Of a DNA stretch of 64,000 nt, positions 7,386-59,244 are shown in pieces; the first letter of the stretch is position 1; the number at the start of each line of letters is the position of its first letter. Location of the stretch: the NCBI GenBank assembly GCA_015657635.1, contig JACDQM010000095.1, positions 1 through 64,000 on the forward strand, given 5' to 3'. The DNA is from Roseateles sp. (lineage in GTDB: Bacteria; Pseudomonadota; Gammaproteobacteria; Burkholderiales; Burkholderiaceae_C). Below the pieces are notes generated by a model. That model was given only the letters and a program-made list of their open reading frames with translations. It did no database searches and was not told the DNA's origin. The position numbers were made by a program, and so were the translations under genes.

Positions 7386-8485
7386 ATGCCGCCCTCCAAA
7401 CGAACTCCCCCGCCGGCCGACACCGTCCCTGAGGCGGCACTGCCCGTGACGGCGGCCAAGGTTCACCCCACCTATGCGCGCCTGCTGTGCATGTTGTTGC
7501 GCAACCTGGGGGCTGATGTGGAGCGCAGCCTGGCCGCGGCTGGCCTGAGCTGGGCCGAACTGGCGGTGCGGGAGCAGATGCTGGACTTCGCCGTCGTGCA
7601 TCAGCTGGTGCTGGCGGCGCTGGCGGCCAGTGAGCGGCCGGCGCTGGGTCTGGGCCTGGGCCAGATGGCGCAGATCTCAGCCCATGGCGCGCTGGGGTAT
7701 TCGATGGTGGCGAGCCGCGATCTGCGCCAGGCTTTGGAGACGGTGGCTCGATTCGCCAGCCTGCGCAACGGCTTGCTGCGCTTCGAGCTGCAGGAAGACG
7801 CCGTGCAGGCCGTGCTGCAGGTGCATGAGTGCTGCGATCTCGGCCAGGCGCGCGGCTTTGTGCTGGAGATGGTGCTGGGCACGGCACTGCGCCTGATGGA
7901 ATCGGTGGTGGGGCATCGTGTGCCGGGCTTGCGCATCGAGCTGCCTTTCGCTCAATCCGCCGACCCACGCTGGCTGGCGCAGCTGCGTCAGCTCTTCGAC
8001 GGCCGCTCACGTTTGACGCGCCGATGCTGGCCTTTCATCTGGCCCCGGCGATGCTGAGCCTGCCCTGCCTGACGGCCGATCCTCGCGCCTACGAGGCGGC
8101 CCGGCAGGACTGCGAACGCGAGCTGGCGCAGGCGCGTGGCGTGCCGGGGCCCTGGACCTTGCGGGTGCAGCGGCTGCTGCTGCAACGCACGCCGGGCGAG
8201 CCCTTCGCCGGCGTGGCCGAGGCGGCCGCGCACTGCCATGTGTCGGTGCGGACCTTGATCCGGCACCTGCGCCTGGAAGGCGGCAGCTATCAAGCGGTGC
8301 TGGACGGCGTGCGCCAGGAACAGGCCTTGCGCGCGCTGCGCCAGGGCAAGGACTCGGTTGAAGAGATCGCCGCAGCGCTGGGCTTTGAGGACACGTCCAA
8401 CTTCAGTCGCACCGTCAGGCGCTGGTTCGGCCTCACGCCGACAGCCCTGCGGGCCCGCCTGCGAGGGGACAGCGTTTCTCGCTGA
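7386..8485 (+). CDS. AraC-family transcriptional regulator, interrupted by an apparent frameshift
   Basis: Two overlapping frames together form one AraC-type regulator of about 366 residues. The first part (from ATG 7386) is the N-terminal ligand-binding region of the arabinose-binding-like family. The second part ends in the DNA-binding domain with two helix-turn-helix units (VSVRTLIRHL, and EEIAAALGFEDTSNFSRTVRRWFGLTP). The frame changes at GACGGCCGCTC, about 8000-8006; one added C restores an uninterrupted protein reading FDG-PLTFDAPMLAFHL. Divergence from alkB suggests it is the alkane-responsive activator of alkB. The break may be a true mutation or a sequencing indel; similar breaks occur elsewhere in the window. 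Confidence 0.8.
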
Positions 8486-8564
8486 GCATGGGCGCATGAG
8501 CCTTCGGCGCTGCGATTGCTGCGTAAGCGAGCAGAAGCCCCATACCGCTTGAAGGAACACCACC

Positions 8565-9596
8565 ATGTCTGTCTTTGCCACCCGCTTGGTCCTGGCTGCG
8601 GCCTGCCTGCTGATCTCGGTCGCCGCCCAGGCCAAGGAGGCCCCTGAGCCCTTTGCGCTGCAGCCCGGCGCCGAGCTGACGGCTGGCACGGAAAGCACGC
8701 TCGATTGGGGCAATAGCGCGGCCTTCAAGGGCGTGCGCCGCGTCGTGGTGCCGGAGTTCAGCATCGAGTTCCTGCAAGGCAATGCCGCTGGCAGCAGCGC
8801 TGGCAAGGCCTCGGTGGCGCAGCAATGGCGACTCGAAGGCGTGGGGCCAGCCGAGTTCCAGGCCATCACCGACGCCGCCTACGCCCAGCTGCTGACCACC
8901 TTGCAGGCGGCCGGCTTCGAGGTGGTGGGCGCCGAGGCGATGCGGGCCCATCCGGCCTTCGCCAAGATGCAGGCCCAGGGCAAGCCCAGCGGCCACGCCA
9001 CCGGCGCCGGCCTGGCCATGGCGCCTGCCGGCCTGCTCGTGATGCCGCTGGGTACGGTGGGCCAGCGTAGCGACGGCGGCGCTCTCGGCGGCGCGCTCAA
9101 GACCCTGCAGACCTTCAGCGCCGTGAGCTCGGCGATCAGCGGCGGCTTCGACACGCAGGAGATGGCGCGCGGCCTGGACGCCACCGTGCTGCAGCTGCAC
9201 TTGGCGGTGGACTTCTCGCAGGTCGGCGCCAAGCGCGGCTTCGTGCAGCGCATGAGTGGCAAGGCCGAGGTGTCGGGCAAGGCCCAGCCCTCGATCGCTG
9301 CCGGCGCTCAATTGCGCTTCATGACCCCGGCCACGCAAGGCGCAACGCTGCAGCTGGCACGCCCGCTGCTGCTGCCCGAAGACACATTCAACGGCACGCG
9401 CGAAGCCACCAGCAGCGCCACCAAGACCGCCAATGTGGCCGGCGCGCTGCTGCGCTTTGCCGCCGGTGTCGGCGGCGGCCACGAGACGGTGGAATATGAG
9501 GTCAGCGCCGAGCCCGAGCAGTACAAGCGCCGCCTGATCGAAGGCCTCGGCCAGTTCAACGCCGCCGTGGCGGCCCGGCTGGCGGCGGCGCGCTGA
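8565..9596 (+). CDS. Secreted protein of unknown function
   Basis: 343 residues with a clear Sec signal peptide (LVLAAACLLISVAAQAK, cleavage near residue 23). The start has a GAAGGA ribosome site. The mature protein is rich in Ala and Gly and has no motif I recognise. Near residues 155-165 there is a glycine-rich hydrophobic stretch and near 285-305 another. No cysteine pattern or catalytic triad is apparent. It stands alone between the regulator and the convergent sugar dehydrogenase, so context gives no function. Export to the periplasm is inferred from the signal sequence alone. Confidence 0.65.
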   Translation: MSVFATRLVLAAACLLISVAAQAKEAPEPFALQPGAELTAGTESTLDWGNSAAFKGVRRVVVPEFSIEFLQGNAAGSSAGKASVAQQWRLEGVGPAEFQAITDAAYAQLLTTLQAAGFEVVGAEAMRAHPAFAKMQAQGKPSGHATGAGLAMAPAGLLVMPLGTVGQRSDGGALGGALKTLQTFSAVSSAISGGFDTQEMARGLDATVLQLHLAVDFSQVGAKRGFVQRMSGKAEVSGKAQPSIAAGAQLRFMTPATQGATLQLARPLLLPEDTFNGTREATSSATKTANVAGALLRFAAGVGGGHETVEYEVSAEPEQYKRRLIEGLGQFNAAVAARLAAAR

Positions 9597-23983: not shown

Positions 23984-24910
23984 TTATTTCTTCTTCGCGC
24001 GCGGATGGGCCGCGTCGTAGACCTTGGCGAGGTGTTGGAAGTCCAGCTTGGTATAGACCTGCGTGGTCGCGATATGGGCATGGCCCAGCAACTCCTGCAC
24101 GCCGCGCAGATCGCCGCTGGATTGCAGCAGGTGCGAGGCAAAGGAATGGCGCAGCATGTGCGGATGCACATGGCTGGGCATGCCGGCCCGCAACGCGCGC
24201 TGCTTCAGCGCCACGCGCACCTGCCCATCCGAGATGCGTGCGCCGCGCGCGCCGACGAACAGCGCCGGCTCATCCGCGCGCGCCAACTCGGGCCGCAGCG
24301 CCAGCCAGGCCTGCAGCGCCGCCAGCGCGGCCGATCCCACCGGCACGCTGCGCCGCTTGCCGCCCTTGCCCAGCACCTGCGCCTCGGCGGATTGCCGGTC
24401 GACCCAGCCGCGCGCCGTGCCACTGGCCTGCGCGTCCAGGCCCACCAGCTCGGCCACCCGCAGACCGCAGCCGTAGAGTAGCTCGACGATGCAGTGGTCG
24501 CGCGCCTCGATGCGAGGGTCGCCGCTGCCGTCCTTGAAATCAGCCAGCTGCACCGCGTCATCGGCCGACAGGGCCTTGGGCAGCGGCTTGGCCGCCTTGG
24601 GCGCACGCAGGCCGGCGATCGGGTTCTGCGTCACCAGGCCTTCGCGGCCCAGCCATTGATAGAAGCCGCGCCAGGCCGACAGCAGCAGCGCCAGCGTGCG
24701 CGGCCCCAGGCCTTCGCCGTGCGTGGCCGCCAGCCAGCGGCGCGCCTGGGCGGCCTGCAGCTGGCGCAGCGCCACGCCGTCGCGCTCGGCCAGCTGCTGC
24801 AGGCGCAGCAGTGCATCGGTGTAGAGCGTCAGCGTGCGCGCGGCCAGCCGGCGCTGCACGCGCAGATAGTCCAGGTAGCGGGCGAGATCGCCCTCAGGCG
24901 CCAGCGCCAT
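23984..24910 (-). CDS. xerC: Site-specific tyrosine recombinase of chromosome-dimer resolution
   Basis: 308 residues. An N-terminal SAM-like core-binding domain (1-100) is followed by the catalytic domain with all six residues: Arg151 (GLRVAEL), Lys about 182 (GKGGKRR), His251 and Arg254 (HMLRHSF), His277 (LLGHAHI), nucleophile Tyr286 (QVYTKLD). XerC with XerD resolves chromosome dimers at dif. The position at the end of a dapF-DUF484-xerC operon is the conserved proteobacterial arrangement, so it is housekeeping, not a phage integrase. It overlaps DUF484 by 17 bases. Confidence 0.93.
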   Translation of the reverse strand: MALAPEGDLARYLDYLRVQRRLAARTLTLYTDALLRLQQLAERDGVALRQLQAAQARRWLAATHGEGLGPRTLALLLSAWRGFYQWLGREGLVTQNPIAGLRAPKAAKPLPKALSADDAVQLADFKDGSGDPRIEARDHCIVELLYGCGLRVAELVGLDAQASGTARGWVDRQSAEAQVLGKGGKRRSVPVGSAALAALQAWLALRPELARADEPALFVGARGARISDGQVRVALKQRALRAGMPSHVHPHMLRHSFASHLLQSSGDLRGVQELLGHAHIATTQVYTKLDFQHLAKVYDAAHPRAKKK

Positions 24911-39378: not shown

Positions 39379-39453
39379 GGGCCGAGATTGTCCGCAATCC
39401 CGGCGCTGCTCAGGACATCACGCGGATCGGCGATCCGACTACAATGCGGCCAT

Positions 39454-39540
39454 TCCGAGGAGCGTTGCAACCTCTGCACTGAGGCCAGGCTCGGAACAAG
39501 CTCTGTGATACACAGGCCTCGTCGCAACTGCGCTCACCCG
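39454..39540 (+). promoter_or_regulatory. SAH riboswitch upstream of ahcY
   Basis: The sequence matches the known SAH-riboswitch consensus. CCGAGGAGCGTTGCAACC begins at 39455, the pairing arm CTCGG is at 39490-39494 (with CCGAG 39455-39459), and the downstream GCAACTGCGCTCACC is at 39524-39538. The pseudoknot pairs GAGCG (39460-39464) with CGCTC (39531-39535). SAH binding is known to raise expression of SAH-recycling genes. A second hairpin, GGGTGAG (39555-39561) with CTCACCC (39533-39539), overlaps the pseudoknot strand and may be the alternative OFF structure. Confidence 0.92.
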
Positions 39541-39632
39541 CTGAAGTCCTGCGTGGGTGAGAGTTTGAATCCCCCCCTTTCTCTCCTGCGCCAGACGGCA
39601 GCGGCTTCAAGAATGTGTTGAAGGAGCCTGCA

Positions 39633-53597: not shown

Positions 53598-54821
53598 ATG
53601 AAGGTCTACAAGGTCGGCGGCGCGGTGCGCGATGCACTGCTGGGCCGCCCGGTCAGCGATACCGACTGGGTGGTGGTAGGCGCCAGCCCGCAAGCCATGC
53701 AGGATGCGGGTTATCAGCCCGTGGGCAAGGACTTCCCGGTGTTTCTGCACCCGCAGACGCATGAGGAATACGCGCTGGCACGCACCGAGCGCAAGACGGC
53801 GCCTGGCTATCACGGCTTCGCCTTCCATGCCGCGCCCGAGGTGACGCTGGAGCAAGACCTGGCACGCCGCGACCTGAGCATCAACGCGATGGCGCTGGAC
53901 CCCGACAGCGGCGCCATCGTCGACCCCTACGGCGGCCAGCGCGACCTGCAAGCCAAGGTGCTGCGCCATGTCTCCGACGCCTTTGCCGAAGACCCGGTGC
54001 GCATCCTGCGCCTGGCCCGCTTCGCCGCGCGCTTTCACGACTTCACAGTTGCACCCGAGACGCTGGCGCTGATGCGCCAGATGGTGGCTGATGGCGAGGT
54101 GGATGCGCTGGTGGCCGAGCGGGTGTGGCAGGAAGTGGCGCGCGGACTGATGGAAGCCCACCCCTCGCGCATGTTTGAAGTGCTGCGCGAAGCTGGCGCA
54201 CTGGCCCGGCTGGCGCCGGCCATAGCCCGGCTCTGGGGCGTACCGCAACCCGAAGCCCACCACCCCGAGATCGACACCGGCGTGCACCTGCTGATGGTGC
54301 TGGACGCCTGCGCGCGCATGGATGCGCCCCTGCCGGTGCGCTATGCCTGCCTGTGCCACGACCTGGGCAAAGGCCTGACGCCGGCCGACCAATGGCCACG
54401 TCACATCGGTCACGAAGGCCGCGGCGTGCCTCTGGTGCAGCAGCTGAGCGAGCGCTGGCGCGTGCCCAGCGACTGCAAGGAACTGGCCGAGCTGGCCGCG
54501 CGCGAACACACCCACATCCACCAGAGCCTGGGCTTTGGCCCCGAGGCGCGGCTGCGCCTGCTGGAACGCTGCGACGCGCTGCGCCGCCCTGAGCGCTTCG
54601 AGCTGCTGCTGCTGGCCTGCGAATGCGATGCGCGCGGGCGCCTGGGGCTGGAAGACCGCGACTATCCGCAGCACGCGGCGCGGCTGGCCGATCTGCGCTG
54701 CCTGCAGGCGCTCGATCAAGGCGCCATCAGCGCGGCGGCGCTAGCGCAAGGATTGAGCGGCCAGGCGGTGGGGCGGGCGATACAGGCGGCGAGGTTGCAG
54801 GCGTTGATGAATGGGGCGTGA
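53598..54821 (+). CDS. cca: Multifunctional CCA-adding enzyme (tRNA nucleotidyltransferase with HD domain)
   Basis: 407 residues. The enzyme adds or repairs the CCA end of tRNA. The nucleotidyltransferase motif [12 protein letters not shown] and DTDWVVVG (catalytic Asp pair) are at the N-terminus; [11 protein letters not shown] and the arginine-rich [12 protein letters not shown] follow. An HD phosphohydrolase domain ([10 protein letters not shown], about 254) is present, as in gamma/beta-type Cca. It is the last gene of a group slt-reductase-GST-cca. Confidence 0.95.
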
Positions 54822-54868
54822 GCGAGTTGGCGGACGGACTGACGGCTGAAGCCTGAGCGGCCAAGCAC

Positions 54869-55189
54869 TCACTCGAGCACGACCGCTGTGCCGCTGACTG
54901 CGACCATCAGCATGCCGTTGCTCTGGCCGAGCACCTCGTAATCGATGTCGATGCCGACCACCGCGTTGCCGCCGCTCTTCTCGGCACGCTGCTGGAGTTC
55001 TGCGAACGCAATGTCTCGCGCGCGGAGCAGCTCCCTCTCGTAGGTGCCAGACCTGCCGCCGAGCATGTCCGTGACGCCAGCAAACATGTCCTTGACGACG
55101 TTCGCACCCAGGATCGCCTCACCGCACACCACGCCGCAGTATTTGACGATGCTGCGACCCTCGACGTTCGGGGTAGTTGTGAAGAGCAT
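54869..55189 (-). CDS. YbjQ/UPF0145 family protein
   Basis: 106 residues. The pattern [48 protein letters not shown] with the later [14 protein letters not shown] is diagnostic of UPF0145, a pentameric fold of unknown function often called heavy-metal-binding. It is the first of several small genes all read leftward in a stretch of visibly lower GC, which resembles gene-cassette DNA. Confidence 0.85.
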
Positions 55190-55259
55190 GTGTTGTGGTC
55201 CTTTCGAGGGGTGAAGTCAGTGAATGTGCGGGCCGACGTTTGAACTGCGCGGCGAGCGT

Positions 55260-55320
55260 CGGGATGACACTGGCCCGCTCAAGCTCAGGGCCAGGCTTCG
55301 GTCTCACCTGCAGAAAAGGC
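55260..55320 (-). repeat. Possible broken integron attC-like site
   Basis: On the minus strand GCCCTGAGCTTGAGCGGGCC (around 55281-55300) shares TGAGCTTGAGCG with the attC at 56505-56561, but the recombination core GTTAG is replaced by GGGCC. The block also forms an inverted repeat, CTGGCCC/GGGCCAG, around an 11-base loop. It sits just behind the stop of the DUF4124 gene, where an attC would be expected. Confidence 0.3.
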
Positions 55321-55762
55321 GAATGTCGTTCTCCGCAACCTGCCGGTCGTGCGCGTCCGTTGGCGCTCCGTTGCCATGCTTGACCGCTCCACTGAGTACA
55401 TCTCGGGCCAAGTTGCACTTGGACTCCCTGGTCTCGTCGATCTTGCCGCCAGACAATGACTTCGGTCGAGAACTCGAAAAACCGTGGCCAGAGCCTTCCT
55501 TTCGCTTCACAGACTCGGCTGGAGCAGAAGCCTCCTGGGAACGACTCGTCGCCGTCGCTGGCGGACGGAGGGTTGGGTGCGGCGAACTTGGGATCCTGAT
55601 ATCGACCACCTTTTCTCCCGCTTGCGGCGGCTTGCGCTCGGAGTAGTGCACCTTGCCATCCTTATCAACCCACTTGTAGACCTCAGCAGCAACTGCCGAT
55701 GACGCTGCGGCCAATGCGAGGACGACAAGGAGGGTGAACAGCCAGGCTGCTGAGTACTTCAT
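55304..55762 (-). CDS. Secreted DUF4124 protein
   Basis: 152 residues. A signal peptide (LFTLLVVLALAAASSAVAAE) precedes the DUF4124 core EVYKWVDKDGKVHYSERKPPQ, which is complete, unlike the more divergent copy at 11830. The C-terminal part is basic and Ser/Pro rich. It is a periplasmic or envelope protein of unknown role. Its base composition is less GC-rich than the core genes. It lies in a leftward series with the neighbours, possibly as a gene-cassette relic. Confidence 0.75.
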   Translation of the reverse strand: MKYSAAWLFTLLVVLALAAASSAVAAEVYKWVDKDGKVHYSERKPPQAGEKVVDIRIPSSPHPTLRPPATATSRSQEASAPAESVKRKEGSGHGFSSSRPKSLSGGKIDETRESKCNLARDVLSGAVKHGNGAPTDAHDRQVAENDIRLFCR

Positions 55763-55833
55763 GCTTGGGCCTTGAGCTACGAGTAGAAGGCGCGACGCAG
55801 AGGTGACGTCGAATCCTCACGTTGCAGTTGCGC

Positions 55834-55882
55834 CGCTAACGGCGGCCTTCCGACGCGAGTCGGCTCGAGCTGCAGGTTAGAG
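55834..55882 (-). repeat. Possible degenerate attC site
   Basis: On the minus strand CTCTAAC (55876-55882) and GTTAGCG (55834-55840) bracket 35 bases holding a CCGAC-TCGC-GTCGG hairpin. CTCTAAC holds the TAA stop of the gene ending at 55877, as often seen in cassettes. The outer arms pair poorly and the element (49 bases) is short for an attC. It would terminate the cassette of that gene. Confidence 0.3.
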
Positions 55883-56488
55883 CTCACCAACCGCGCCTTC
55901 TGAAAAGCAGCCTGTGCGCGCGCAACTACGCTTGCTCGTCCAGTAGATGCCACTCCACATCACAGGATTCAGCTCGCGATCTCGATTGAAAAAGAGCGCA
56001 CTTCCATTCTCAAGTCTCCATCCCACAAGCCGGACACCCGCAACTGGCTCAGCTTGAAACCCTGAGGGGCGGCCATACAGCTTAAGAATGGACCTTAGGC
56101 CATCCATGTGCCCCCACCACGGAATTGTGAGACTTGCACTGTCCAGTCGGTCGTCCTGAAAGAAGAATGCCACCACCATAGCGCGGACCCCGTTGTGCGA
56201 CGAAACGTCGACATAGCACCCCTTGTCTCCCAAATTCGTCGCCGGCGCTCCCTTGTAGCAAGTGATCCTTGCCTCAGGAAATCGCTGCCGTAGCTCAGCC
56301 TCGCTCCAGGTCTCAGACAGCTCATCAAAGCGAAAGTCCAATGCCGGTCGCTTCTCAGTCAAGTAGAGGCGGTATTCCCGGACATGCTCTGGGTACGCAA
56401 GCGCGAGTAGGGCCAGCGCGCAACCGATCGCAGCGATCGCGATAGCTAAGGCCAGTACAAGTGGGTGGGTTCTTTGGCGGCTTCGCAT
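55877..56488 (-). CDS. Hypothetical protein with N-terminal membrane anchor
   Basis: 203 residues. A single hydrophobic segment (LVLALAIAIAAIGCALALLALAY, about 10-32) is followed by a soluble domain (RPALDFRFDELSETWSEAELRQRFP; then aromatic-rich GHMDGLRSILKLYGRP). Cys pairs occur near the end. I do not recognise it. The start lies 16 bases behind the attC site at 56505-56561, and the stop lies in the attC-like site at 55834-55882. This is the layout of an integron cassette gene. Confidence 0.6.
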   Translation of the reverse strand: MRSRQRTHPLVLALAIAIAAIGCALALLALAYPEHVREYRLYLTEKRPALDFRFDELSETWSEAELRQRFPEARITCYKGAPATNLGDKGCYVDVSSHNGVRAMVVAFFFQDDRLDSASLTIPWWGHMDGLRSILKLYGRPSGFQAEPVAGVRLVGWRLENGSALFFNRDRELNPVMWSGIYWTSKRSCARTGCFSEGAVGEL

Positions 56489-56504
56489 GTGGTGTCTTCG
56501 TGAG

Positions 56505-56561
56505 CTCTAACGCTCAAGCTCAGCGGGCGGCGAAGCCGTCCACTGGAGCGATGGGTTGAAC
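56505..56561 (-). repeat. Integron attC recombination site
   Basis: On the minus strand the element runs from GTTCAAC (56561-56555) to GTTAGAG (56511-56505), 57 bases, the usual minimal attC length. Between are the CGCTC/GAGCG arms, a central GCGG-CGAA-GCCG hairpin, and CTGAGCTTGAGC before the core, all in the order known for environmental 59-base elements. It lies directly behind the stop of the gene at 56572-56985. No integrase gene is seen in the window. Confidence 0.6.
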
Positions 56562-56571
56562 CGCACCACAA

Positions 56572-56985
56572 TCACCTGGCAGAAGTGCATGCCAGTTCCA
56601 CTCGGACCATGCCGCCCCCCAGGCCGGGGGTACCCACTTGGGTACCTGATCTGGTCTGCAATTGTGCGATCGTAGTCTCGCCTTCATATATCGCGTTCAT
56701 TCGGACTCCCGCTGACGCAAGGAACCGGGCGGTTGCCGACGTGCCCTTGCTGTTTGGCTCGGCCTCAGAGATGACTATCTCCACAACTGCGACCAAATCG
56801 TCGACGATGGTCGTGCACCGTTGGCGGAGTTCTGCGAGTGCAGCCTTCAGTGGGGCCTGCCAAATACGGTCGGGATGCGACGCGTATCCAGCAGGAAGTA
56901 AAACAACTTCGAACTCCCTTATCGACGTTGCCGGAGCCGGCACGGAAGTGGCAACGAAAACAAGGGCGAGAAGCGATGCGCGCAT
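56572..56985 (-). CDS. Small secreted protein, probable gene-cassette product
   Basis: 137 residues from ATG 56985 with a signal peptide (MRASLLALVFVATSVPAPATS). The mature part has charged segments with Cys near the middle and end (RQRCTTIVDD, ELACTSAR). It is followed at once by the attC site. An upstream in-frame extension to 57072 lacks a plausible signal sequence. Unrecognised; low GC compared with core genes. Confidence 0.5.
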   Translation of the reverse strand: MRASLLALVFVATSVPAPATSIREFEVVLLPAGYASHPDRIWQAPLKAALAELRQRCTTIVDDLVAVVEIVISEAEPNSKGTSATARFLASAGVRMNAIYEGETTIAQLQTRSGTQVGTPGLGGGMVRVELACTSAR

Positions 56986-57325
56986 GTGCTTTTCAACGCA
57001 ATTTCTCGAGACAGGCGCTGCTGTATAACACCGGAAATGTCCGCATAAAAAGTCCGCGCCAAACGCTCGCAATCCCCTGATTCATATATGTTTCATCCTG
57101 AATTCGAAGTCCAGCGCTGGGTACTAAAAATTCTGTCAAAAGCGGCAAGGGTTACAACTGACAGGGCGCAGCAGGATGCCGGATCTGGGGGACAGTGAGC
57201 CTGTCGTTAGCAGGCCTCTGCCTGCGGTCGCCAAGCTCCCAAGGATCGCTTGTCGCAGGGGAAGCAACGCCCTCGTCTTCACTCCGCCACACTTCTGCGT
57301 TGCCCATGCCTCGCACACATCACCC

Positions 57326-58192
57326 TCATCGGTAACGCCACACCACCGTCGCCTTCAGCCCCGCGTCGACCAGCCGATGCCTGGGCTGCGAGGCCGAGCC
57401 CACCAGCACGCCGTGCCGCCACAGCGGCGCCGAGGGGCCGGCAGCGATGCGCTCGTCGCGCAGGCTCAGGCGCAGTTCATGCGCCCAGCCCGGCGGGCGA
57501 TTCTCAGCCGCGAAGCCGGCCGAACGCAGCGACAAGGCGGCTTCGCCGAACGTGGAGCGGCCGGTGCGCAGCCGCGCCGGGTCAGCCGTGGGCAGCTGCA
57601 CTTGCACCGTGCCGCGCGGTCCGCCGCCCAGCCACAGCTCGGCGCCCCAGTGCCAGCCTGCCGGCGCGCTGCTCATGCCGCTGCCCCGCTGCGCCGTCAG
57701 GCCGAGGGCCAGCGTGGCATGGCGATGCTGCTCGGGATAGCCCTGCACAAGGCCCACTGAGGCCAGGTCGCGATCCAGGCTGCGCCAGTCGCCGCGCAGG
57801 CCCAGCGCCAGCTCGGTGCGGCCACTCGATGGTGGCGACAGCGGCCGCCAGAGGCTGACGCGCAGGCTGCGCTCCTCGATGTCGCTGTGGGTGCGGATGG
57901 CGGCACCACTGCTGCTGAGGCCGCGGTAGTCTCGCTGGCCACTGCGCCAGCCGGCATCGGCCTCGCCGTGCCAGCCCGCGCAACGCAGCGCCAGGCCTAG
58001 CCTTGCGCCGGCCAGCGTGCCGGATTCGCGCAGCAGGCGTCGCCCCTGCGCATCGCTTTCATCCCAGCGGCTGTGCCCCAGCCACAGCGCGGCGCCAGGC
58101 TCCGGTGCGGCACAGCCGGCCGCAGTGGCATTGGCAGCGCCGCCGCCGCCACAGACCAGCAGCAAGCTCAGCAACGCTGAGCGGGTCATCAT
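57326..58192 (-). CDS. Predicted outer-membrane protein coupled to a lipoprotein
   Basis: 288 residues with a signal peptide (ALLSLLLVCGGGGAANATAAG) and a mature part of alternating strands (GAALWLGHSRWDESD, LGLALRCAGWHGEADAGW, GWHWGAELWLGGGPRGTVQV), ending VVWRYR. This suggests a small beta-barrel, but the family is unknown to me. Its ATG overlaps the stop of the lipoprotein gene upstream (TGA within ATGA), so the two are co-translated. Confidence 0.55.
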   Translation of the reverse strand: MMTRSALLSLLLVCGGGGAANATAAGCAAPEPGAALWLGHSRWDESDAQGRRLLRESGTLAGARLGLALRCAGWHGEADAGWRSGQRDYRGLSSSGAAIRTHSDIEERSLRVSLWRPLSPPSSGRTELALGLRGDWRSLDRDLASVGLVQGYPEQHRHATLALGLTAQRGSGMSSAPAGWHWGAELWLGGGPRGTVQVQLPTADPARLRTGRSTFGEAALSLRSAGFAAENRPPGWAHELRLSLRDERIAAGPSAPLWRHGVLVGSASQPRHRLVDAGLKATVVWRYR

Positions 58193-59244
58193 CAACGCAG
58201 ATCGCTCCAGCGGCGCGTGGTCGAGGTCTCGTAGACACCGTTGCCGTCGGCATCCAGCTCCAGCAGGGCCATGCCGCCAGCCTGTGCGGTGATGCGCAGC
58301 TGGCTGGACGCCGCGCCCTTGATCAGCAGCTGGCCGCTCGACGGATCGACAGCGCTCCAGTTGCGAACCAGCGGCGCCAGAGTTTCAACGCTGATCTGCT
58401 TGGACTCGATCATCGAGCCGCTGAGTGCGCCCCTGATGCTGACGCTGACGTTGTAGAGCGTGCCGCCGGGCGCCTTGCCCAGCGTCAGCTGGAAGCCGAC
58501 CAGCGAGTTGGAGTAGCTCACGCCACCCAGCGTGCCGGCTACCGTAAAGCTGGGCACGGTGATGGTGACTGCAGAGCTGTAGGGACCGGTGACCCGCGTC
58601 TCCATGCGCATTTCGCCATTGCCGATGGCGGTGTCCTGGCCCGTGACGACGGTGAGCTTGTCCATGCGCAGCGTCAGCGCGGCGCTGTAGTTGCTGGAGC
58701 CGAACACTCCGGTGAGGCTGGTCAGCGCCATCTCGATGCCGCCATTCATGGTGGAACCGCTCTCGATGCAGTTGACCGCACGGATGGCAATCGCATCGCC
58801 GGCGTCAAAGCTGCTGTTGTTGTTCTTGTCGTCGACGCTGATGTCCATGCGTCCGCCGCCCGAGCAGGCTTCGGTCACGGTAGTCACCGCGCCAGCGACA
58901 ACGGGCGAACCGACGCCCTTGGCGAACCAGCCCGGCAGGCGATCCAGCTGCGCCAGCGCAAAGCGCGCCGGCGCCTTGCCGTCGCTGGCCTGCGCACCAG
59001 TCAGCAACTCGGCGCTGTCCATGAAATACAGCGAAGACGACACCGCCGTCTGTGCCACCGCCACATAGTTGCTGCTGGTGATCGACAGCTTGCCCAGGTT
59101 GGGATCGGGGCCGGGCACCAGCGGGTCGCCCGCGCCGCCGCCACCGCCGCCGCAGGCAGTCAGTACGAGTGCCAGTGCCATGGACGCTGCCAGGGCCGAC
59201 TGCCGGCCCAGCTGATGATGATGGTGAGTCGTCTGCTTCTGCAT
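58192..59244 (-). CDS. Lipoprotein of unknown function
   Basis: 350 residues. A His-rich N-tip and signal peptide ending in LVLTACGGGGGG (lipobox, Cys about 31) predict a lipoprotein. The mature part is Ser/Thr/Gly-rich with beta-strand periodicity and one calcium-binding-like segment (DISVDDKNNNSSFDAGD). A final LELDADGNGVYETS resembles a calcium loop. The start ATG at 59244 has a GGAGG site. It is co-translated with the barrel-like protein, so the two may form an envelope complex. Confidence 0.6.
   Translation of the reverse strand: MQKQTTHHHHQLGRQSALAASMALALVLTACGGGGGGAGDPLVPGPDPNLGKLSITSSNYVAVAQTAVSSSLYFMDSAELLTGAQASDGKAPARFALAQLDRLPGWFAKGVGSPVVAGAVTTVTEACSGGGRMDISVDDKNNNSSFDAGDAIAIRAVNCIESGSTMNGGIEMALTSLTGVFGSSNYSAALTLRMDKLTVVTGQDTAIGNGEMRMETRVTGPYSSAVTITVPSFTVAGTLGGVSYSNSLVGFQLTLGKAPGGTLYNVSVSIRGALSGSMIESKQISVETLAPLVRNWSAVDPSSGQLLIKGAASSQLRITAQAGGMALLELDADGNGVYETSTTRRWSDLR

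Follow-up and report, generated by a model that had tools for sequence, protein, structure and literature searches.

How does a chromosome come to carry what looks like an array of integron cassettes with no integrase gene beside it? In an integron, cassettes arrive as circles, and the integrase IntI recombines the attC site of each with attI; the most recent arrival is therefore found beside attI, and successive genes are separated by attC sites. The question is raised by a locus in a Roseateles sp. genome (G000; 4.6 Mb in 191 contigs). The window, by which we mean the whole stretch of DNA analysed, comprises bases 1-64000 of a 99-kb contig, C162. Within it, the original prediction had pointed to four small genes on one strand that differ in composition from their surroundings, one of them ending in a putative attC site, and had suggested that they form either a cassette cluster without an integrase or a relic. 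Here we argue that the segment is very probably what is left of an integron after loss of its integrase gene: an attI relic, two cassettes with attC sites and two older genes.

The features are collected in Table 1. Their order is attI, g1, attC a, g2, attC b, g3, the doubtful attC c and g4, in a single orientation throughout. All four open reading frames run leftward, the first spanning 56572-57072 in its longest form; from the sequence, we think 56985, an ATG, a more probable start of g1 than 57072. Windows of this size across the 64 kb average 0.675 G+C (sd 0.024), whereas 54869-57072 reaches only 0.595, and the ten sliding windows of lowest G+C all start at about 54850-55300. The reading frames and the base composition thus agree with the four same-strand genes of deviant composition first described. 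The 289-aa right-flank reading frame has no Pfam match. Elsewhere in the window, an SAH riboswitch was found at 39451-39542 (60.5 bits).

Table 1. Features of the array and its flanks, given as positions in the window.
Feature	Position	Strand	Basis or remark
Left flank: cca-type tRNA nucleotidyltransferase gene	53598..54821	+	ORF; named from sequence; relatives conserve the gene
g4, YbjQ-family protein, 106 aa	54869..55189	-	PF01906, E 2.9e-36
attC c, doubtful degenerate attC between g3 and g4	55231..55296	-	R1, filters off
g3, DUF4124 protein, 152 aa	55304..55762	-	PF13511, E 2.2e-13
attC b, partly decayed, overlaps g2 stop codon	55814..55882	-	R1 match
g2, 203-aa ORF, cassette 2	55877..56488	-	ORF
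attC a, end of cassette 1, 57 bp	56505..56561	-	R1 match 56505-56560
g1, 137-aa ORF, cassette 1	56572..56985	-	ORF; extendable to TTG at 57072
attI relic and remains of divergent integrase-promoter region	56995..57159	-	Array head; attI profile and R2
Right flank: 289-aa ORF	57326..58195	-	ORF; 91% aa identity in L051, 47% in L048

Are the attC sites real? From beside the intI genes of 19 other genomes of the family we gathered 119 attC-like elements by folding and by the box motifs of such sites. After evident non-sites had been left out, we selected 44 of these elements, which come from 14 loci, to build the covariance model R1; none comes from the window's genome, and one (from L154) is of the sequence type of attC b. 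On the held-out loci L144, L147 and L150, R1 gave many matches, up to 66.6 bits. As controls we used 70 of the relatives' 80 cca loci, 1.045 Mb in all; two matches reached E<=10, and the higher score was 14.5 bits.

Over the 64-kb window, R1 at E<=10 returned attC a at 43.2 bits (E 1.9e-8, minus strand), attC b at 22.3 bits (E 0.0037, or 0.267 genome-wide) and nothing else. The 57-bp element that had been taken for attC is therefore found by the model, and the ATG of the next gene, at 56488, follows 16 bases past it, as had been stated. The covariance-model search that the original prediction proposed as a check yielded in addition attC b, which, like the attI relic discussed below, was not among the features first reported. 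Neither of the outcomes named in advance as telling against the element, a sub-threshold score or a lack of further attC sites in the genome and its relatives, arose for attC a. The R' box of attC b reads GTGAGGA, as against the GTTAGG-like form, and the site is 80-83% identical to attC sites on contigs C90, C161 and C83 of the same genome. With filters off, R1 also scored attC c, at 13.4 bits (E 0.029 in 2.8 kb). Because the controls reach a higher score than this, and because its strand folds into two hairpins, we keep attC c only as doubtful.

One objection is that these are ordinary low-G+C chromosomal genes with chance hairpins and no integron at all. It can draw on the weak scores of attC b and c and on modest single-strand folding: the z values are -1.77, -0.60 and -0.79 for attC a, b and c, so that attC a folds only modestly better than shuffled sequences (12 of 200 shuffles fold equally well) and the folding of attC b and c is unremarkable. 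Chance hairpins would nevertheless have to produce the E value of attC a, that of the attI match (5.2e-12), an agreeing order and orientation of sites, and scores that the controls fall far below; we consider this explanation extremely improbable.

If the segment is an integron, where is the integrase? The original prediction saw none here, and neither a TIGR02249 search of the genome (cut-off 265 bits) nor tblastn with 29 IntI proteins finds intI near the array. The sole TIGR02249 match on C162 is a recombinase at 24.0-24.6 kb (match 24020-24235) that scores 68.8 bits. Nor was an intI remnant recognised beside the attI relic, by tblastn with the same proteins or otherwise. The prediction had also called for a search for intI and for more attC copies, and both are present elsewhere in the genome. 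Its only IntI lies at C127:6337-7282 (L012), where TIGR02249 matches two adjoining pieces (239.8 and 189.7 bits) that lie in different frames and, taken singly, both miss the cut-off; as assembled, the reading frame of the gene is broken, perhaps through a mutation or through an assembly error. A sister genome, G036, has intI without stops at C62:297-1241. On one side of the C127 intI are sugar-nucleotide genes, recognised from their sequence, and on the other an attI, one cassette reading frame and an attC of 49.1 bits. With two attC sites in the segment, no intI nearby, and attC and intI elsewhere, both forms of the original proposal, an integrase-less cluster and a relic, fit.

An integrase elsewhere in the genome and no remnant of one at the locus are also what would be expected had the cassettes been inserted by that distant enzyme at a secondary, attG-type site that was never an integron platform; such insertion has been described (Loot 2024, as cited in PMC12444791). 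We leaned towards it at first, since a BLASTN comparison of the C127 attI region with the window found nothing above chance level (the matches included one of 41 bp at 56981-57021, E 2.2). We dropped it once a profile built from 12 attI regions outside the window matched 56995-57159 on the minus strand at 42.6 bits (E 5.2e-12), spanning positions 6-171 of its 173. The best score of this profile on 79 control loci was 6.6 bits. R2, a model of 20 attI regions, again none from the window, matched 56995-57158 at 42.7 bits (E 6.5e-12, or 1.8e-10 in the whole genome). An attG insertion places cassettes at a site without attI; here a nearly full-length attI relic stands exactly at the head of the array, and we regard attG insertion as unlikely. 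To judge from these two scores, the segment probably derives from an integron platform.

The attI match stops at 56995, 9 bases ahead of the g1 ATG. It is this relic, together with attC a and attC b as found by R1, that leads us to an integron without intI. The window attI is the most diverged of five compared with one model. The profile also recovers intI-adjoining regions outside its training, at 21.4 to 106.8 bits and some of them partial; since it finds 12 of 30 intI loci (L018-L047), it covers only part of attI diversity. An exact CTGT-N8-ACAG box occurs in 7 of 48 attI regions without an adjoining working intI, as against 11 of 30 intI-linked promoters (Fisher p 0.03); we set this SOS-box comparison aside because the two sets stem from different integrase lineages.

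What does the same locus look like in relatives? The closest named relative at the cca locus is Methylibium sp. isolate BC.012 (97% aa identity), followed by Pelomonas, Roseateles and Paucibacter. In BC.012 (L051, a 131-kb contig) the flanks are conserved, at 94% over cca and 93% from 57161 on, and g3 and g4 lie in the same place, g3 being 82% identical at the amino acid level. In place of window positions 55880-57160, which hold g1, g2 and the attI relic, L051 has some 845 bp of different sequence. One breakpoint (55880) falls inside attC b and the other (57161) at the edge of the attI match (57159). L051 has no attI match by R2 and no attC above 10.7 bits in the matching segment; R1 gives the counterparts of attC b and attC c 4.8 and 9.4 bits. 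Pelomonas sp. CA6 (L048) has the right-flank gene immediately after cca. The window's genome and L051 encode the very same g4 (YbjQ) protein, next to a g3 that differs as stated. L051 also carries, at 8208-9400 between cca and g4, a gene that by eye resembles those for PEP-CTERM proteins, together with an incomplete second copy of the 3' end of cca.

This comparison also bears on whether the array is a misassembled piece of the main integron, a concern that an assembly of 191 contigs and a main array ending at a contig end might raise. The array lies well inside its contig, with both flanks collinear with L051, where g3 and g4 occupy the same place, and we judge misassembly very improbable.

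The cassette genes themselves say little. Neither g1 nor g2 has a Pfam, PADLOC or plasmid match. No relative of g1 was found in the other 398 of the 399 genomes searched; relatives of g2 turned up in 11 genomes of the 399 besides this one, and no attC was found in the fetched flanks of these relatives. Since the g2 relatives have no nearby attC and g1 has no relatives, the cassettes have not been seen moving, and the attC-free relatives of g2 do not help the cassette claim. Loss of the integrase has further points against it: attC b is weak genome-wide, folding is modest, no intI remnant was found, and the L051 segment is without an attI match.

We nevertheless favour loss of the integrase gene from a former integron, and propose the following history. 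IntI would have put circular cassettes into attI by attC x attI recombination, the newest adjoining attI. The intI gene would have been deleted later, after which the sites drifted. On this model g3 (DUF4124) and g4 (YbjQ) would be older genes whose attC sites decayed or never existed. Any present movement of the cassettes would need an integrase supplied in trans. Site scores drop with distance from attI (43, 22 and 13 bits, the last doubtful), and this fall in site quality, the array order and the single orientation all fit insertion by IntI.

The window array is not the only one of its kind in the genome. Four other attI-like places without intI are each followed by attC: C33:14995-15161, C90:57795-57961, C161:603-770 and C55:135693-135832. 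On C90, C33 and C161 the attI/promoter region of C127 recurs without intI, at 78-87% identity, and these copies retain about 17 codons that resemble, by eye, the start of intI. More than 100 bp of further upstream DNA is common to C90 and C33 and absent from C127, which suggests that these two attI regions descend from a copy that was already decapitated. R2 finds six attI matches in the genome among the matches listed (C33, C90, C127, C161, C55 and C162); the attI models were trained in part on copies from this genome and from G075, another genome of the family, though never on the window copy, and recovery of the training copies is therefore partly by construction. Because the array on C83 runs up to the end of its contig, its head is not visible. 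Behind their last cassettes, C90 (L013 9995-10123) and C83 (L015 10586-10714) have a common 129-bp tail (85% identity). A cassette reading frame on C161 (L014 771-1451) weakly matches a candidate defence model, PDC-S50 (E 1e-5).

How far does this pattern extend? At E<=1e-5, R2 gave attI-like matches in 81 of 299 genomes of the family, this genome included; these are counts among the matches listed in a search of the 299 genomes with stricter filters, not family frequencies. We chose 40 attI matches from 27 genomes, away from the intI matches listed and with long contigs favoured, and fetched at most 7.7 kb around each. None of the 40 was in the R2 training, and for two, G021:C10 and G075:2692411, nearby attC sites had been found beforehand. 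Downstream of 32 of them lies an attC of at least 25 bits in the right orientation. The eight without one are L255, L256, L257, L259, L260, L262, L264 and L265, the last two from the sister genome G036. A piece of intI (E<=1e-5) accompanies 15 of the 40; at L256 coverage of intI is nearly full, with one piece in the opposite orientation, and the others cover at most 145 of 380 residues.

In G075, an assembly of three contigs with a completeness rating of 100%, the 10 attC matches fall at four places, all of which also have an attI match, and no IntI scores above the level of generic recombinases (best E 3.1e-23). G021 is a counter-example: it has four attC places away from intI, with an attI match at two of them among the matches listed, leaving C11:322623-323896 and C10:238526 as attC without attI among those matches. 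As a separate observation, contig C1 of G007, a single-contig genome of 5.3 Mb, has six attI-like places (L243-L248), each followed by attC, with a piece of intI (E<=1e-3) at only one.

Integrase-less attC clusters are already known as CALINs. IntegronFinder 2.0 reports them when there are at least two attC sites, and they have been proposed to be degraded integrons (PMC9024848). The segment in the window has two neighbouring attC sites (43.2 and 22.3 bits by R1, the second weak genome-wide) and no integrase nearby; of the three parts of a complete integron, intI, attI and attC, it is intI that is absent at the locus. It resembles CALINs in its attC-bearing cassettes without a nearby intI, and it differs from those described in the relevant part of PMC9024848 in keeping an attI region at its head. 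Xanthomonas CALINs away from ilvD are likewise integrase-less clusters at several conserved loci, with an integron elsewhere and progressive loss of IntI; the part of PMC12444791 considered here mentions no retained attI, whereas in our genomes attI heads recur. According to the sections considered of PMC2426708 and PMC3108266, roughly one intI gene in three, or more, is broken. Such inactivated integrons have, like ours, lost the integrase and left the sites; in contrast to them, no intI remnant was found at the window locus, and its genome has six attI matches among the matches listed. The attG insertions (Loot 2024, as cited) share cassettes outside an integron platform and differ in that an attI relic is present here. 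We did not find CALINs that keep attI, or several intI-less, attI-headed arrays on one chromosome, described in the open-licence PubMed Central texts considered, PMC11023631 included (subscription papers lay outside this scope). The retained and repeated attI is thus the aspect that we did not find described. As outlined in PMC9024848, IntegronFinder does not detect attI outside class 1; array heads and their likely points of expression and capture therefore go unannotated.

Where integrase-less clusters come from is debated: whole integrons may decay, or cassettes may be inserted at secondary sites. A family-specific attI model allows a decision between these origins case by case, and most of the sites examined here point, by their sequence, to loss of intI with attI kept. 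A more speculative reading, less likely than not, is that many chromosomes in this family of Burkholderiales are multi-platform integrons: they would have one integrase or none and several attI-headed arrays, multiplied and spread after the loss of intI, each a possible landing site in trans, and the array in the window would be one such platform, and an old one. If this were true, many CALINs would be decapitated, sometimes duplicated integrons, not cassettes that have strayed into attG sites.
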